From positions 19,910 to 83,909 of the forward strand of contig CALGLU010000079.1 of assembly GCA_937959275.1 (NCBI GenBank): 64,000 nucleotides of DNA, given 5' to 3'. Positions 16,161 through 25,922 of the stretch are shown one piece after another; the stretch's first letter is position 1, and every line of letters begins with the position of its first letter. The notes beneath the pieces were generated by a model. That model was not told the origin of the DNA. It was given only the letters and a program-made list of their open reading frames with translations, and searched no databases. The translations under genes were made by a program, and so were the position numbers. Source of the stretch: an uncultured Saprospiraceae bacterium (GTDB lineage Bacteria; Bacteroidota; Bacteroidia; Chitinophagales; Saprospiraceae).

Positions 16161-19100
16161 GTGCCAAAAACCATTGTATATAGCCTCACCCAACATCCCT
16201 TATTACAATGCTATATACCCACCCCATACGTCTGCGATATCGACAAAAATGGAAATCTGGGCTACATGCTTAAAAAAGTGACTCCTGAAGTTATAGCCTC
16301 GTATCAGTCCATCTCTTTAGATGAAGCCAATCAGCAATGCATCAAGATCTGCGAGGAATTAAGCGATGAAGGCCTCCATCAACGATTTATCAAAACAAAA
16401 CGCAACACCATAGTTAAGCTCCTCGCTGAACCTTTGACCGCTAAACCTATCCGAGCTGCCATTGACAAACAAGTGAATGAAGCTCTTCTATTATTTTGCC
16501 AACACCAACTCCCCGTATGCCTAAACATCGAAAGAAAAACAAGACTTGAAAGCATAAGAATCCATCTCCATCAGGACCAACTCTCGCCTATTCTTAAATT
16601 TAAAAAAACACAAACTGGCATACTGTACACCCTACGCTTAGTTGGTGCCGATACATCTGAATGGCACCCCGCTGACCTCGACCCTCATATGGTCTGTAAT
16701 CAGCCAGGCTGGGTCATTCTAAAAAGACAACTCTTTCAGCTACAATACATCAATGGGAATAAAATCAAACCCTTCTTAAAAAAGAAAACGATCACAATCC
16801 CAAACCACCTAAGCCATACCTATTTAGAAAAATTTGTTCACAGCCTGATTGCAAAAGTCAAGGTTGAGCTTGATGGTTTTGAATTAAAAGAGCATACAAA
16901 TGCCCCCACAACCATACTCAAAGCTAGAGAGGATTTTATTTCTGATACGTGGATATTGGATCTATTGTTTACCTATGAAAATGAAACATTTCACTATTGG
17001 GCAAAGGAAGACAAGCGGACTAGGATGCATTATGGCGAAAACAATGAAGTTTCATTTTCAATCACACGGCGACAAGAAAACGTAGAAGAAGCCATTATTA
17101 ATATCTTAAAACCGTATGGCGTCACTGTAGACAAAACCAAGCGCTTGGAATTTACCGAACCAACTGCTGACTCGTTTCATGCTATTCATTGGCTACAAGA
17201 ACATAAAAAGGCCCTTCAAGCACAACACATTGAAATCGAATTACCTCCTATCAATGATCATGTACTCTCTTTCGAACAACCAACAATTAGCATCTCGCAA
17301 ATTGAAGAGAATGACTGGTTTGATGTAAAAGCAGTCGTGACTATTGGCAAACAACAAGTCCCCTTCTCTCAACTGATCGAACACATAAAATCCAATAACC
17401 GCGTATTCGAAATGGAAAATGGGGACGCTTTCATCATCCCACTAGAATGGATGACTCAGTATGCAGGACTTGCGCGCTGGGCTCAAATCAAAGACAAAGA
17501 AGTCAAGATCCTTAAAAGTCAATACAGTCTTCTACAAGACGATGACAATGCTGATGAAGACTCTATACGTATTTATGAAGCCCCAACCGAGGATATTGAC
17601 TTCACCCCCTCGCCTCTTTTAAAAGCCGAGCTCCGCCCCTATCAACAGGCTGGTGTGCAATGGCTTATCAACCACCAACAAAATGGGCTGGGCTGCTGCC
17701 TAGCGGATGATATGGGGCTGGGCAAGACAGTGCAGACGATCGCGGCCCTGCTGCATGCGCGCGAAGGCTTTGCAAATCAAAATCATAATGAAAATCAAAA
17801 TCTAAATGAGAATGAAAATGAGAATCAGAATGAGAATGAGAATCAGAATCACAATCAGAAAATAGCCGCTCCGAAACAACATCCAAAGCCTGAGATACAA
17901 GGTGAGCAACTTGATTTATTTGGCATTGCACAAGAACCGATTGTAGTGAGTCCGCAGCTGGAAGAGAAGTTGATAGTCAATAGTCCACAGTCCATAGATA
18001 AAAAATCAAGCGAAGATCAACAACAAACAAGCAAAGATCAACACCTGCCTGACGGCAGTCAGGCCCAACACTCAACACTCATAGTAATGCCCTCCAGCCT
18101 CCTCTTCAACTGGCAATTGGAATGCAAAAAATTTGCGCCTCATTTACATGTGAAACAACATATTGGTCCTAAGCGATCTAAATCGTCATCTGATCTCAGT
18201 CGATTTGATGTTGTTTTGACAAGCTATCAGACTGCCCTTCGGGACATAGACATCTTGGTTGATATTGAGTGGCATTACATCATTCTTGACGAATCTCAAT
18301 ACATCAAAAACCCGGCATCCAAGATATTTTCTGCTATTCAACAACTATCTGCTGAACACAAATTAAGTCTATCGGGCACCCCCATAGAAAATAGCTTGTC
18401 AGATTTGTGGTCGCAAATGCAGTTTATTAATCCAGACATTTTAGGTAGCTATTCGTTTTTTAAAAAGCACTTTCAAAAGCCAATAGAAAAAGAGCAAGAT
18501 GAATCTCTTATTGATGAATTAAAGACATTGACACGTCCCTTTTTATTGCGACGAACCAAAGGAGAAGTCCTACCAGACCTTCCAGAAAAAACGGAACAAA
18601 TCGTGTTTTGCGAAATGTCATCAGCTCAAGCAAAAATCTACGAAACCAAAAAAAGTGCAACCCGCAATATGATTTTGCAATCTGACATGTCAGACCCACA
18701 GGTTAAAATGCAAGTCTTGAGTTCACTCTTGCGTCTTCGACAAATAGCTAATCATCCATCCTTATGTGATTCTGATTACGAAGACACTTCGGGCAAATTT
18801 GAAGTGATAAAAGAGTCGTTTGATACAGTCCATAAGTCTGGTCATAAAGCCCTTATTTTTAGTTCATTCACAGGGCATTTAGATTTAATGGCCACTTACT
18901 TGACTGAGCAAGACATCAACTACGTCAGCTTGACAGGCAAAACGAGTCAGGCCAACCGACAAAAGGCAGTCAAGGCATTTCAAGAAACCGAGTCAATACA
19001 GTTCTTTCTAATCTCCATAAAAGCAGGTGGCACAGGACTTAACCTAACTGCAGCTGATTATGTTTTTATTCTTGACCCGTGGTGGAATCCGTTTGTTGAA

Positions 19101-19295
19101 GAGCAAGCGATTGCAAGGGCGCATCGGATAGGACTAGAACACCCTCTTAACGTCATCCGATTCATCAGTCAAGAGACGATTGAAGAAAAGATTAATAAGT
19201 TGCAGCAGAAGAAACTGAAATTGAGCGAAGACTTTATTGATAGTGGGGACAAGATGCAATGGACAACGGATGAGTTACAGTATTTGCTTGATTGA
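16161..19295 (+). CDS. SNF2-family DEAD/DEAH helicase with a repeat-derived insertion
   Basis: GTG start; DDMGLGKTVQT, IILDESQYIKNP, LSLSGTPIENSLSDLWSQ, GGTGLNLTAADYVFILDPWWNPFVEEQAIARAHRIG. Confidence 0.93.
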   Translation: MPKTIVYSLTQHPLLQCYIPTPYVCDIDKNGNLGYMLKKVTPEVIASYQSISLDEANQQCIKICEELSDEGLHQRFIKTKRNTIVKLLAEPLTAKPIRAAIDKQVNEALLLFCQHQLPVCLNIERKTRLESIRIHLHQDQLSPILKFKKTQTGILYTLRLVGADTSEWHPADLDPHMVCNQPGWVILKRQLFQLQYINGNKIKPFLKKKTITIPNHLSHTYLEKFVHSLIAKVKVELDGFELKEHTNAPTTILKAREDFISDTWILDLLFTYENETFHYWAKEDKRTRMHYGENNEVSFSITRRQENVEEAIINILKPYGVTVDKTKRLEFTEPTADSFHAIHWLQEHKKALQAQHIEIELPPINDHVLSFEQPTISISQIEENDWFDVKAVVTIGKQQVPFSQLIEHIKSNNRVFEMENGDAFIIPLEWMTQYAGLARWAQIKDKEVKILKSQYSLLQDDDNADEDSIRIYEAPTEDIDFTPSPLLKAELRPYQQAGVQWLINHQQNGLGCCLADDMGLGKTVQTIAALLHAREGFANQNHNENQNLNENENENQNENENQNHNQKIAAPKQHPKPEIQGEQLDLFGIAQEPIVVSPQLEEKLIVNSPQSIDKKSSEDQQQTSKDQHLPDGSQAQHSTLIVMPSSLLFNWQLECKKFAPHLHVKQHIGPKRSKSSSDLSRFDVVLTSYQTALRDIDILVDIEWHYIILDESQYIKNPASKIFSAIQQLSAEHKLSLSGTPIENSLSDLWSQMQFINPDILGSYSFFKKHFQKPIEKEQDESLIDELKTLTRPFLLRRTKGEVLPDLPEKTEQIVFCEMSSAQAKIYETKKSATRNMILQSDMSDPQVKMQVLSSLLRLRQIANHPSLCDSDYEDTSGKFEVIKESFDTVHKSGHKALIFSSFTGHLDLMATYLTEQDINYVSLTGKTSQANRQKAVKAFQETESIQFFLISIKAGGTGLNLTAADYVFILDPWWNPFVEEQAIARAHRIGLEHPLNVIRFISQETIEEKINKLQQKKLKLSEDFIDSGDKMQWTTDELQYLLD
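17776..17862 (+). repeat. In-frame N/E/Q/H-coding hexamer-like repeat within the SNF2 ORF
   Basis: aatcaaaatcataatgaaaatcaaaat...gagaatgagaatcagaatcacaatcag, encoding NQNHNENQNLNENENENQNENENQNHNQ. Confidence 0.9.
17969..17996 (+). repeat. Heptanucleotide array inside coding sequence, 4 units
   Basis: GTTGATA GTCAATA GTCCACA GTCCATA; same units as the intergenic array at 3882-3930. Confidence 0.85.
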
Positions 19296-19532: not shown

Positions 19533-20225
19533 CTAAAAGTCATTAAGTGTAATAGTCATTAATGTTGTAACCGGGTCACCTTCACAAATTCCTGGCTTCC
19601 ACAGTTGGGATGTTATTAAATCCTTAAGGTCATTGATCAGCTCTAGTTCGATATATCCCATCATTGATTTAGCCATTTCAATTTCTATAGGATTACCTTT
19701 AGATATTTCATTGTATTGTGTGTCTCCATTTTCGTCAGCCATGAACCAAAATATTTCACTTGTTAAGAATAAATTCTCTAATTCAGATTCCGTATTAATT
19801 ATAAAGTTCACTTCAAATATTTTGTATTGCTCAGATCTAAATAGATCTTCTGGTATTTTGGTCAAAATCAATGAATCCAATGCTTCTTTTGTATTTTGAT
19901 TCCCATTCAAAGATGCTTGGTTTACAAGTTTTGAATTTTCAATACCGTAGATATAAACTTCACTTATTTCTAGGCTGTTCTCCTCATCGATTATATTTAC
20001 TATTTCAATCTTATCTATTAGCTCACAATTTTCTTGGGCATTCATTACAATACTAAAGGCAAATAACTGCAAACAAAAAATAACTTTAATCGCATATTTC
20101 ATTTTTAAATTTTTCATAAGCGTTTCTTTATTCTCCATAATTCTCATATTTATTTTTCTTATACACAGTAAGTTTGCATCATTATAACCCGATCTTAACG
20201 TCAAAATAAACATCTGACATATCAA
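19533..20225 (-). CDS. Hypothetical secreted protein
   Basis: ORF with signal peptide (YAIKVIFCLQLFAFSIVMNAQ); the true start is probably an internal Met. Confidence 0.55.
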   Translation of the reverse strand: MICQMFILTLRSGYNDANLLCIRKINMRIMENKETLMKNLKMKYAIKVIFCLQLFAFSIVMNAQENCELIDKIEIVNIIDEENSLEISEVYIYGIENSKLVNQASLNGNQNTKEALDSLILTKIPEDLFRSEQYKIFEVNFIINTESELENLFLTSEIFWFMADENGDTQYNEISKGNPIEIEMAKSMMGYIELELINDLKDLITSQLWKPGICEGDPVTTLMTITLNDF

Positions 20226-20231
20226 TCTTAA

Positions 20232-20603
20232 TCAAGTCACCCCCACATAATGCTCCCCTCTTTTCAAATGACTCAAATTGTGTCGTTTACAATTGAGCTT
20301 TTCAACTAAATAATTCACTGCGGTTTCGGGGTTAAGGTCTTTTCCGCAGGTAAACAAATCAATGGCCGCATAGCCATTTTCTGGCCAAGTGTGAATATTA
20401 AAATGGCTCTCTGCGATGATAACCGATCCAGATACACCTTGCGGAGCAAACTGGTGAAAATGAGCTTTAATGATCGTTGCTTTGGCTAATGCTGCAGCTT
20501 GTAACATAATCTGCTCGAGGGCTACAGGATTATCTAAAATAGCCTGATCACATTCATACATGTCTAAAATCGTATGCCTGCCTAATGATGTATAGTTCTC
20601 CAT
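20232..20603 (-). CDS. speD: S-adenosylmethionine decarboxylase proenzyme, prokaryotic type
   Basis: Autocleavage-region motif VIIAESHFNIHTWPENGYAAIDLFTCG; start set at MENYTSLGRH, 1 nt after the upstream stop. Confidence 0.93.
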   Translation of the reverse strand: MENYTSLGRHTILDMYECDQAILDNPVALEQIMLQAAALAKATIIKAHFHQFAPQGVSGSVIIAESHFNIHTWPENGYAAIDLFTCGKDLNPETAVNYLVEKLNCKRHNLSHLKRGEHYVGVT

Positions 20604-20604
20604 T

Positions 20605-21765
20605 TTAATCTGCGACAAAGTGAGGTATAAATTGACAATCGTTGTCAATAATCATTTTTTCTGCTCGTCTAAAGGAAATGCCCGCAGCTTTTCCATTGAT
20701 ATTATACATGCCTGGTTGATAATATTCTCCACAGCTATCTTTATACAAAGTGGCAAATTCTTGATAAATAGAATGAGACATATCTAAGTCACCGTCAGTC
20801 TGCTCTGCTATTTGACCTCTTGAATCGAAGATGGTAATATTCTCTCCTAGCCTGCCGAAGACTGCTTTTTTCACATAGGGCATGCCTCGAAATGTTTTAG
20901 GATCAAGCGTTGACTTCAACAGATAATTCGATTTATATTTTTCTGCTAATCTGACTAAAAATGCCTTTGATTGATACACCATAGTGTAGGCTGGATTCAG
21001 CACATATAGTAGATCATTTAGAATCAAATTATGTAAGTCTGCCAATAAATCGGGTTCTTCAAAACAGATAAATTCCCACGGAATCAATTTTAATAAATAA
21101 TCAAACTTATAGTATGACTCATCATCTCCTTGAATAAAGACGCCTTCGTTTCTTGCGAACTGCACAGCGGGTAAATCTGCATAAAGTGTCTCGAAGCCTT
21201 CATTGGCTGCAGCATGTAATAATAAATCAAGGTTTGCAATATCTTCTTCGTGACCAAACGAGGTCCCAAGAATCATCTTCTCCCGATTAGGTTCTGCTAT
21301 GCTCAACCAATTAAAGGCAACTTCAAGTCTATTGCTTAGCTCAGAGTAGGGCAATCCTTCCAGCAAGGCATTAAATCCATTTTGAATGGTAATTGACTCA
21401 GGTAATAAAGTTGGCATATCTGCATTAAACTCCAACAGTTTAATAGGTAAATCATTTATTCCTCCAGAGAAATCAAATCTTCCTAATAGATGCATTTGAT
21501 CCTTCTTAACACTTTGGATAATGAGATCAATCATCTGATTCGGAAAGCCTAAAAACTGAAAGTCTCCACGCTTCACAATAGTCTGCAGTTCTTCTTTGAA
21601 CATCTCATAGACTTCATCCTGAGCCTTTTTAAAGGCAAGGACTTCATCACTGTATAAAAATATAGCTTCAGGGACGATATAATCATCGTCCAAAAGAAAT
21701 TCTAACTCATGCTCTTGTATTGCTGCATCAGGTATACCAGTTAGCTCAACAAGTCTATCCTCCAT
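20605..21765 (-). CDS. Glutathionylspermidine synthase-like ATP-grasp ligase (YgiC/YjfC family)
   Basis: ATP-grasp core YVKKAVFGRLGENITIFDSRGQIAEQTDG and NINGKAAGISFRRAEKMIIDNDCQFIPHFV; no amidase domain; 386 aa. Confidence 0.88.
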   Translation of the reverse strand: MEDRLVELTGIPDAAIQEHELEFLLDDDYIVPEAIFLYSDEVLAFKKAQDEVYEMFKEELQTIVKRGDFQFLGFPNQMIDLIIQSVKKDQMHLLGRFDFSGGINDLPIKLLEFNADMPTLLPESITIQNGFNALLEGLPYSELSNRLEVAFNWLSIAEPNREKMILGTSFGHEEDIANLDLLLHAAANEGFETLYADLPAVQFARNEGVFIQGDDESYYKFDYLLKLIPWEFICFEEPDLLADLHNLILNDLLYVLNPAYTMVYQSKAFLVRLAEKYKSNYLLKSTLDPKTFRGMPYVKKAVFGRLGENITIFDSRGQIAEQTDGDLDMSHSIYQEFATLYKDSCGEYYQPGMYNINGKAAGISFRRAEKMIIDNDCQFIPHFVAD

Positions 21766-22291
21766 ATGATTTAGTAGACTTGCCTCCGCCGTAACTTTTA
21801 GATGTAGTAGGTCTTTTGACAGTGGTTTTCCTAGCCGTACTCTTTAATTGAGATCTGCCTGCAGTATTCGACTTATTGTAAGCGTTGTCGCTAGCATAGG
21901 CGCTTCTATTGACACCAGAACCCATCGGTCTTCCCATCATATAGCCAAACATGCCAGCATAAGCCACCGTTCTGATCATAGATCGTTTAGGATCGTTAGC
22001 TTCCATCAATTTTACCTCGTCTAATGTAAATGTGTCCACAGAACTGTCGAGAAACGTAGCAATGATTTTACTATCTGCTCGATTTTGTAAAATTTCTTCG
22101 TCTGTTATTTTAAATAAATCTTTTTCTGTTTCTTGCAGTTCCAGATGAATGCCTTGTGTTGGTTCTTCTATCGTTTCCTCAACATAATCCTGTTCACTAC
22201 TGCTTTTAAAAAACATACTGTAAACAACGAATAAACCTAAGGCACCATAAATAATGTATTTAAGTGAGAACGAGTTTTGTCCTTCTGCCAT
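21755..22291 (-). CDS. Small single-TM protein with repetitive C-terminal tail ending in SYGG; candidate partner/substrate of the ATP-grasp ligase
   Basis: N-terminal TM (YIIYGALGLFVVYSMFF), basic Ser/Thr/Lys tail ...RKTTVKRPTTSKSYGGGKSTKSYGG*; 11-nt overlap with the ATP-grasp gene. Confidence 0.75.
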   Translation of the reverse strand: MAEGQNSFSLKYIIYGALGLFVVYSMFFKSSSEQDYVEETIEEPTQGIHLELQETEKDLFKITDEEILQNRADSKIIATFLDSSVDTFTLDEVKLMEANDPKRSMIRTVAYAGMFGYMMGRPMGSGVNRSAYASDNAYNKSNTAGRSQLKSTARKTTVKRPTTSKSYGGGKSTKSYGG

Positions 22292-22446
22292 TATAATATA
22301 AATTTTGTAATGATGTAATAATTGTAATTATTTGTAAATATGTCAATAAATCAGCAATCATCAAAAAATATTTTATTCTAATCAGCTTTATCGTCGGACT
22401 TTGTTCCATTGTCTACGAGCTTCTTATCAGTACCATTAGCTCTTAT

Positions 22447-23892
22447 TTGATGGGAGATAGCATTGTTCAGTTTTCATTGATCATTGGATTCTATCTAGCA
22501 TCCATGGGGATTGGAGCGTTTTTATCTCGATTCATTGTGCCAAAGGAAGTGCTCTTTGGCTTTATAAGCATTGAGCTGCTATTGGGTATTATTGGAGCAT
22601 TTTCTGTACCGATGTGTTATTTATTCTTTGCCCTCAGTGATTCCACAGGCTACCAATTCTTTGTTTTATCACTTGTCACGATCATTGGCACCTTGACTGG
22701 ATTTGAAATTCCACTGCTAACAAGAATTTTGGAGCATGAGAACACCTTTGAAAAAAACATTAGTGATATCCTAACCTTTGATTATTTAGGTGCACTTGGC
22801 GCTACCCTTCTCTTTCCATTTTTCCTTTTACCATTTTTGGGATTATATCGGTCATCATTACTATTTGGATTTATCAATTTATTGGTAGCCTTTGTGACAA
22901 TACAATTATTCAAAGAGCAATTGCAACTACGAAAGAGAAGTAAAACTTTACTCAATGCTGCAACAATTTGTTTGGCTATCTTAATTGGCTACATGCTCAT
23001 TCAAACGAATCAACATTTAGATCGATGGAATGAATCCATTTATAAATATCCAATCATTCATTCTGAACACACCCCATATCAAAAGATAGATATTGCAAAA
23101 AATAATTCTGAATTTAGATTATACCTCAATAGTGCAATACAGTTTTCTTCGCGGGATGAATACAGATATCATGAAGCATTAATCCATGTGCCACTCAGTC
23201 AATTAGAATCAGTAAAAACAGTCTTGGTCCTTGGAGGTGGTGAAGGATTAGCCATTCGCGAATTATTGAAATACTCTGAAATTCAACAGATAAGTCTGGT
23301 AGATATTGACCCAGCAATTACTCAACTATCTAGAAAAAATGAACTCATATCTAGACTCAATGAAAATGCATTAGAAGATAGCCGAGTCAACATCATTCAC
23401 CAAGATGCATTTACCTTTTTAAAAGAAGGCGATAGTCGGTTTGATGCAATCATCATAGATCTCCCAGATCCATCTAACGAAAGCCTTGCCAGATTGTACT
23501 CAGATGCATTTTACAAATTATGTTTAAAAAGACTCAATGCTGAAGGCGTACTAGCTACACAAGCAACAAGTCCACATTTAAGCACAAAAGCGTTTTGGTG
23601 CATTAATGAGACCATCCGATATGCAGGCTTTAATTACAGCTATCCTTATAATGTTTATATTCCATCATTTGGGAATTGGGGTTTTATTTTAGCAAAACAG
23701 TCACCACAGTTTACAAATTCATTGCGCCCAGAAATAGAGTACAAGTATTTAGAAAATGACAATTTTGAGCATCTATTTTATTTCGAAAAAGACATCAGAA
23801 TTAATGATGTTGAATTAAATAAACTCGACAAACCAATTTTATTAGAATACTATCTTGACCACTGGAAAAGCCTACAAGGAGAAAAACGGTAA
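22447..23892 (+). CDS. Membrane-fused spermidine synthase-like methyltransferase-fold protein (called start probably truncated, see findings)
   Basis: Multiple TM helices, then VLVLGGGEGLAIRELLKYSEIQQISLVDIDPAI, VNIIHQDAFTFLKEG, DAIIIDLPDPSN. Confidence 0.9.
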   Translation: MMGDSIVQFSLIIGFYLASMGIGAFLSRFIVPKEVLFGFISIELLLGIIGAFSVPMCYLFFALSDSTGYQFFVLSLVTIIGTLTGFEIPLLTRILEHENTFEKNISDILTFDYLGALGATLLFPFFLLPFLGLYRSSLLFGFINLLVAFVTIQLFKEQLQLRKRSKTLLNAATICLAILIGYMLIQTNQHLDRWNESIYKYPIIHSEHTPYQKIDIAKNNSEFRLYLNSAIQFSSRDEYRYHEALIHVPLSQLESVKTVLVLGGGEGLAIRELLKYSEIQQISLVDIDPAITQLSRKNELISRLNENALEDSRVNIIHQDAFTFLKEGDSRFDAIIIDLPDPSNESLARLYSDAFYKLCLKRLNAEGVLATQATSPHLSTKAFWCINETIRYAGFNYSYPYNVYIPSFGNWGFILAKQSPQFTNSLRPEIEYKYLENDNFEHLFYFEKDIRINDVELNKLDKPILLEYYLDHWKSLQGEKR

Positions 23893-25073: not shown

Positions 25074-25922
25074 TTAATTATTACCAAGGATCAGCGGAAG
25101 ACCGCCTCCTTCTCCACCACCAACGATGACCACCTTTGAATTCGGTGATTGTGCTAGTTCGAGCGTTGCCTCTATGCCCTTGTCCTTCAGGATATTACTT
25201 GTCAAACTTGCATTCAAGATTCTATTTGCATCTGCTTTGGCTTGCGCTTCAATAATCTTACGCTCAGCTTCTTTTCGTTCTCTGTCAAGTTTAAAGTCAA
25301 ATTGAAAAGACAATTGCTCTTCTTCTAGCTTTTGCTCAATCGCATCTCGCAGTGTCTCTGGTAATTGCACCGATTTCACAAGGACAGCATCAAGAGCTAT
25401 ATTCTTCTCTTCGATAGATTTTCTTGTTTGCTCATATATCTCAGTTTGAATCGCTTCTCGTTTCGTCGAATACAATTCTTCTGGCAAATATTTACCAATA
25501 ACCTCTCTAGTCGCCGATCTAATTTCTGGTTGGATAATCCGACGAGCGTAATCAGTACCGACTTCATCGTGTAAATGACCAATTCTAGATGGAATTGGGC
25601 TAAATCGATAGGCTAAATCAACTTGGATTGACAAACCATTTTTGGATAGCACATCCATACTCTCCTCTCCTTCCTGAAATCTGACATCATAAATGATCAT
25701 ATCATTCCACGGCATGACGACATGAAAGCCCTGGTCATACACCTTATCTTTTTGGACACCACCAGCAAACCGCTTGAATTGCACGCCTTTGCTACCTGCT
25801 GGGACCGTTATAAATGTTGTGCTTGTTAGAAGCGTGAAGATGAGAAAGACGACAAAAGCCAGAATTATGTATTTCATAAAATTGGCTTGTTTTAGATCAA
25901 ATGGATTCTTACGTTGTGGCAT
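25074..25922 (-). CDS. Prohibitin/SPFH (HflC-like) family protein
   Basis: N-terminal TM, VPAGSKGVQFKRFAGGVQ, SPIPSRIGHLHDEVGTDYARRIIQPEIRSATREVIGKYLPEELYSTKREAIQTEI. Confidence 0.92.
   Translation of the reverse strand: MPQRKNPFDLKQANFMKYIILAFVVFLIFTLLTSTTFITVPAGSKGVQFKRFAGGVQKDKVYDQGFHVVMPWNDMIIYDVRFQEGEESMDVLSKNGLSIQVDLAYRFSPIPSRIGHLHDEVGTDYARRIIQPEIRSATREVIGKYLPEELYSTKREAIQTEIYEQTRKSIEEKNIALDAVLVKSVQLPETLRDAIEQKLEEEQLSFQFDFKLDRERKEAERKIIEAQAKADANRILNASLTSNILKDKGIEATLELAQSPNSKVVIVGGGEGGGLPLILGNN

Follow-up and report, generated by a model that had tools for sequence, protein, structure and literature searches.

The E. coli pairs YgiB-YgiC and YjfM-YjfC, each made up of a DUF1190 protein and a peptide-spermidine ligase, are the closest described systems to the locus reported here. 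Peptide-spermidine ligase activity has been reported for both YgiC and YjfC (Pederick et al. 2023, as cited in PMC12568646). In the searched literature since 2019, we did not find YgiB, spermidine and C-terminal together, and the idea about the substrate developed below may already stand in Pederick et al. 2023. DUF1190 is seldom mentioned in the literature that was searched. RefSeq names YgiC and YjfC as peptide-spermidine ligases. To our knowledge, the natural peptide of these enzymes has not been named so far; the C-terminal tail of the neighbouring protein would be a specific candidate answer.

Two further groups of genes bear on the comparison. PspA/YjfJ-type operons group a GspS-like ATP-grasp enzyme with DUF1190, DUF350 and PspA proteins, and one variant adds an AdoMet decarboxylase, according to the accessible part of PMC11237479; that part names no ligase substrate and makes no mention of a C-terminal tail. 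The C. jejuni gene Cj0371 is treated in published work as a chemotaxis and virulence-associated gene, with spermidine unmentioned.

The window, a stretch of 64,000 nucleotides from an uncultured Saprospiraceae bacterium, contains a cluster of four genes. Three lie on the minus strand: a gene for a 178-aa tail protein (21755..22291), a gene for a 386-aa standalone GspS-like ATP-grasp ligase of the YgiC/YjfC type (20605..21765), and speD, which encodes a 123-aa AdoMet decarboxylase of the B. subtilis type (20232..20603; ATG at 20603, stop codon ending at 20232). The tail gene overlaps the ligase start by 11 nt, and the gap between the ligase gene and speD is 1 nt. The fourth gene is divergent (22447..23892, plus strand) and encodes a membrane-fused, spermidine-synthase-like aminopropyltransferase, which in relatives is clustered with the tail, ligase and speD genes. 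The original prediction, made from the sequence of the window, had placed three minus-strand genes here with this overlap and gap, and had read them as a single-TM protein, an ATP-grasp ligase without an amidase domain, and SpeD. The coordinates bear out the layout and the family matches bear out the identities; the aminopropyltransferase gene is the member of the cluster that had been missed. In the window's family, the four genes are mostly kept together, in several orders. SpeD had been predicted to belong to the system, and this holds for the window's family; at the loci checked outside it, no speD turned up next to a ligase/tail pair, and the pairs elsewhere had neither speD nor the aminopropyltransferase gene nearby.

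The ligase matches PF03738 (GSP_synth, E=4e-68). A Pfam search of its 386 aa gave no match to an amidase domain, whereas the bifunctional E. coli GspSA, of about 620 aa, carries one at its N-terminus. We built an AlphaFold2 model from 44 homologues (mean pLDDT 94.7) and found that its best match in the PDB was E. coli YjfC (7uk6, TM 0.88), followed by GspSA and YgiC. The equivalents of GspSA R316, D318, E330, N332, K498, K533, R538 and R598, which we take to be the catalytic positions, are invariant across the window ligase and all 44 sequences; the ATP-grasp fold and catalytic positions are common to the window ligase, GspSA and trypanothione synthetase. The catalytic residues on which the original prediction had leaned are thus intact, in a GspS-like fold. 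Near these positions, Met117 of the window ligase is Thr in 43 of the 44 sequences, which counts against reading the tail as the substrate. From its sequence and fold, the ligase is predicted to be a peptide-polyamine ligase of the YgiC/YjfC kind. We also considered a graspetide (ATP-grasp RiPP) system and rejected it: the ligase is of the GspS type, and its partner is an anchored 178-aa protein, not a short precursor.

The tail protein begins with a single TM anchor that has no lipobox Cys. The anchor is followed by an acidic beta domain, a Gly-zipper-like segment (AYAGMFGYMMGR) and a basic Ser/Gly tail whose last letters are KSTKSYGG; the protein ends with SKSYGGGKSTKSYGG, followed in the gene by the stop codon TAG. 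This C-terminal stretch (21758..21802, minus strand), with its conserved motif and terminal Gly-Gly, is the proposed site of recognition and modification. In an AlphaFold2 model, the beta domain is confident, and the low-confidence C-terminus is probably flexible. No similar structure was found in the PDB (best E-value about 1), and a ubiquitin-like system, which would also call for another type of ATP-grasp enzyme, was set aside. The single Pfam match, to DUF1190 (PF06693), is weak (13.7 bits against a cut-off of 22), and the profile link consists of a 20-residue GYMMGR segment alone, so that the protein was not classed as a plain DUF1190 member. Cys is conserved in the DUF1190 alignment (extra-cytoplasmic); the window protein has no Cys. 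Among 120 genomes, we found 19 relatives of the tail protein, all 19 of which end in GG, including two whose match stops short of the C-terminus. The tail had been described as repeated, which is a fair description; what is conserved, however, is a motif of the [S/R]G[FY][FG] type together with the exact C-terminus, not a tandem repeat.

E. coli YgiB ends in SRSMGG, with its stop codon 5 nt before ygiC, and YjfM ends in RGHWGG, with its stop codon 2 nt before yjfC. The E. coli systems and the window therefore have in common the ligase type, the fold, the upstream tail gene and the GG end. They differ in that the window tail protein has another N-terminal domain, with only the weak match to DUF1190, and in that the window cluster adds speD and the aminopropyltransferase gene; no PspA or DUF350 gene was found beside it. 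The PspA/YjfJ-type operons resemble the window in that they place a DUF1190 lipoprotein with a GspS-related ATP-grasp ligase and include polyamine genes. Campylobacterota proteins of the Cj0371 type, whose gene adjoins that of the ligase, can be aligned with the window protein over the full length: N-terminal anchor, beta domain, Gly-zipper-like segment and tail. They carry a lipobox and in C. jejuni usually end in FGS, whereas the window protein lacks the lipobox Cys and ends in GG.

We located 223 distinct standalone ligases, from Pseudomonadota, Bacteroidota, Campylobacterota and a Desulfobacterota set, and took as the upstream gene the longest same-strand ORF ending at most 60 nt from the estimated ligase start, chosen blind to its C-terminus. 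We found that 131 of 194 upstream genes end in GG, compared with 4 of 119 downstream genes and 29 of 1070 other ORFs of at least 200 aa; the last residue is G, S or A in 183 of the 194. GG stands at the exact C-terminus in 74% of 189 tails and at any offset from 1 to 29 in at most 12%. Phe or Tyr is commonest at position -3, and a motif of the [R/S]GGFG, SGFF or SGYG type lies roughly 8-18 residues from the end. About a quarter of the tails end in GS, SS, GA and similar pairs; the tail rule is therefore broader than GG, and a strict GG rule was ruled out. The tails sit on three types of carrier with different N-terminal domains: long DUF1190 proteins, the Cj0371/window type, and short proteins of 100-130 aa. 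All three share the RGGFG/SGFF motif, the S/G-rich stretch and the small last residue, and profile comparison joins the types via short segments alone, namely GYMMGR (alignments A3-A4, A3 being the Cj0371/window type) and RGGFG (A4-A5). If the tail were a signal for recognition by the ligase, one would expect it to be portable in this way and to occur on different carriers. At three loci (L124, L125 and L167), two tail-type genes with different N-terminal parts appear to stand in tandem before one ligase.

The terminal GG could also be a functionless by-product, arising because the tail gene runs into the ligase start or because the tail is rich in Gly and Ser. Such an overlap does exist in the window, between the GGA GGA codons and the ligase ATG, and the tails do have this composition; the original prediction had itself raised the nucleotide constraint as a caveat. 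Yet GG is present in 96 of 135 non-overlapping tails, compared with 44 of 54 overlapping ones, and all four Gly codons are used, which largely removes this caveat. The tail is also kept where its gene stands apart from that of the ligase (L033, L052, L058, L145 and others) or lies downstream of it (L204, L206, L223, L232), and GG persists in both arrangements. Together with the non-overlapping tails, the downstream genes rule out an artefact of the start codon, and the rarity of GG at other positions of the same tails rules out mere composition; we give the by-product explanation almost no credence. Whether GG would be conserved in orthologs and under other gene orders was a question that the original prediction had put, and it is kept in both.

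The tail also accompanies the ligase at the level of genomes. The ligase is present in 19 of 19 genomes with the tail protein and in 4 of 101 without it, a difference whose Fisher p (about 1e-18) is overstated since genomes were counted as independent. Three genomes with the ligase and no tail protein of the window type (G116, G068 and G048) carry a short tail protein of another type adjoining the ligase; the fourth is G001, a genome of the window's genus that lacks the tail gene and is described below. Elsewhere the tail is rare: the pattern was found in 21 of 4901 other ORFs, and most of the 21 are evident tail genes of the same kind. No tail gene adjoins GspSA genes (0 of 14 loci), which, unlike the window ligase gene, also encode an amidase domain. 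The tail thus accompanies the ligase across very different bacteria, and does not accompany GspSA, which indicates that the tail protein is probably the ligase's natural target.

These findings suggest that the ligase naturally acts on the C-terminus of the small envelope protein encoded next to it and amidates it with spermidine or a similar polyamine; we consider this likely on the sequence evidence. What sequence and structure show directly is the pairing of the genes, the conservation of the tail, and the fold and intact catalytic residues of the ligase. An unlikely alternative is that the ligase uses a small soluble, glutathione-like peptide as the acceptor of spermidine and that the tail protein is an unmodified partner, such as a sensor, a binding lipoprotein or a localiser, whose GG tail docks. 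Docking would fit the co-occurrence and the adjacency as well, the characterised relative GspSA acts on the tripeptide glutathione, and export is predicted for the tail protein. Docking tails, however, need no free small residue at the exact C-terminus, whereas GG is position-specific here and 183 of 194 proteins end in G, S or A; moreover, different carriers share the tail. The original proposal, in which the ligase acts on a C-terminal Gly, passed all the sequence tests available, and only its tail rule has to be widened beyond GG.

Topology weighs on the preferred reading, in which the tail is the substrate. Lipobox-like motifs occur in 145 of 189 tail proteins, and these motifs and the conserved DUF1190 cysteines suggest export. 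The ligase has no apparent export signal. With most tail proteins predicted to be lipoproteins and the ligase to be cytosolic, access of the ligase to the tail must be explained, which counts against the tail as substrate. GFP is usually non-fluorescent after Sec export. Cj0371 with GFP fused to its C-terminus gives polar fluorescence (PMC4944492), which would favour a tail on the inside if the fusion is faithful. Because of this fluorescence, and because the tails are basic (median +8) and the N-terminal domains acidic (median -6), we considered a return of the tail to the cytosol through the Gly-zipper segment; we did not adopt it, as the segment is weakly hydrophobic and short tail proteins lack it. 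We conclude that the original proposal has good support as a prediction and needs correcting on three points: the tail rule, the fourth gene and the topology.

From these data we infer the tail as substrate, spermidine as the amine and a role in the envelope, as follows. Recognition by the ligase would involve the motif ([S/R]GGFG or SGFF/SGYG type) together with the flexible, Ser/Gly-rich residues that follow it. The enzyme would then use ATP to activate the carboxylate of the C-terminal Gly (or Ser/Ala) and join it in an amide bond to a primary amine of the polyamine, spermidine or one like it. Modification would precede export, or the tail would stay in the cytosol. This would leave an anchored envelope protein whose tail is strongly cationic and ends without a carboxylate, and which could bind to anionic lipid or to other polymers of the envelope.

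In the window's organism, SpeD and the clustered aminopropyltransferase would supply the polyamine. SpeD scores 146.5 bits against TIGR03330 (cut-off 75.65), is also above the cut-off of PF02675, and is the single SpeD match in the genome. The aminopropyltransferase scores 553 bits against NF002956 (cut-off 472), matches PF01564, and is the genome's only strong spermidine-synthase match; no carboxynorspermidine decarboxylase was found above cut-off in this genome. The clustering of the four genes in the window's family would also fit a two-step scheme: the ligase would first put a diamine or another amine on the tail, and the membrane aminopropyltransferase would then lengthen it on the protein with decarboxylated AdoMet from SpeD. 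Aminopropylation of other substrates is considered in PMC11237479, which cites a 2019 study of AdoMet decarboxylases. Nevertheless, we regard such lengthening as very improbable: both polyamine genes are absent near the ligase/tail pairs elsewhere (loci checked), and ordinary polyamine synthesis suffices to account for an enzyme that lies above the cut-off of an equivalog model for polyamine aminopropyltransferases and has no strong counterpart elsewhere in the genome.

Extending the preferred reading, amidation of the tail itself, to the several phyla surveyed, we lean towards a dedicated modification in which one ATP-grasp ligase would read a portable RGGFG/SGFF...GG tail on small envelope proteins and amidate its C-terminus with a polyamine; the clustered aminopropyltransferase of the window's family may provide the attached amine, or even extend it. 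In eukaryotes, SUMO-spermidine has an amide on the C-terminal GG carboxylate with a shift of +127.147 Da (PMC12270671), the mass shift that the original prediction had named (+127 Da). SUMO-spermidine is made by SUMO E1/E2, with no dedicated ATP-grasp ligase, and the likeness is functional, with no homology claimed. If the proposal is true, bacteria would have a dedicated protein-polyamine modification parallel to these conjugates, polyamine supply would be tied to envelope proteins and envelope-stress operons, and a function could be proposed for DUF1190 and for uncharacterised lipoproteins related to it, Cj0371 among them. The main value here lies in a named, testable candidate for the natural substrate of a known enzyme-partner pair.

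Several minor observations concern the cluster and its surroundings. The aminopropyltransferase frame is open upstream to 22297 and homologous there (SIVYELLISTISSYL). Its first listed start codon is TTG at 22447, with no in-frame ATG, GTG or TTG in 22297-22447; since the ATG of relatives falls in this interval, this gene may begin at a rare codon or contain a wrong base call. In a genome of the window's genus (G001; L248, G001:C159:9000-16000), the tail gene and the 5' end of the ligase gene are both missing, speD is kept, and the aminopropyltransferase frame is broken; as this is a draft assembly, frame breaks may be errors. Adjoining speD, a minus-strand gene (19533-20225) encodes a secreted-looking protein that gave no Pfam or NCBIfam match. 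A plus-strand gene beyond it (16161-19295) encodes a helicase-like protein of the SNF2 type, interrupted by a low-complexity run of Asn, Glu and Gln (NENENQNENENQNHNQ). Band-7 proteins are present in some published polyamine-ligase operons (PMC11237479); in the window, a Band-7/SPFH protein is encoded about 3 kb from the cluster (25074-25922, minus strand).
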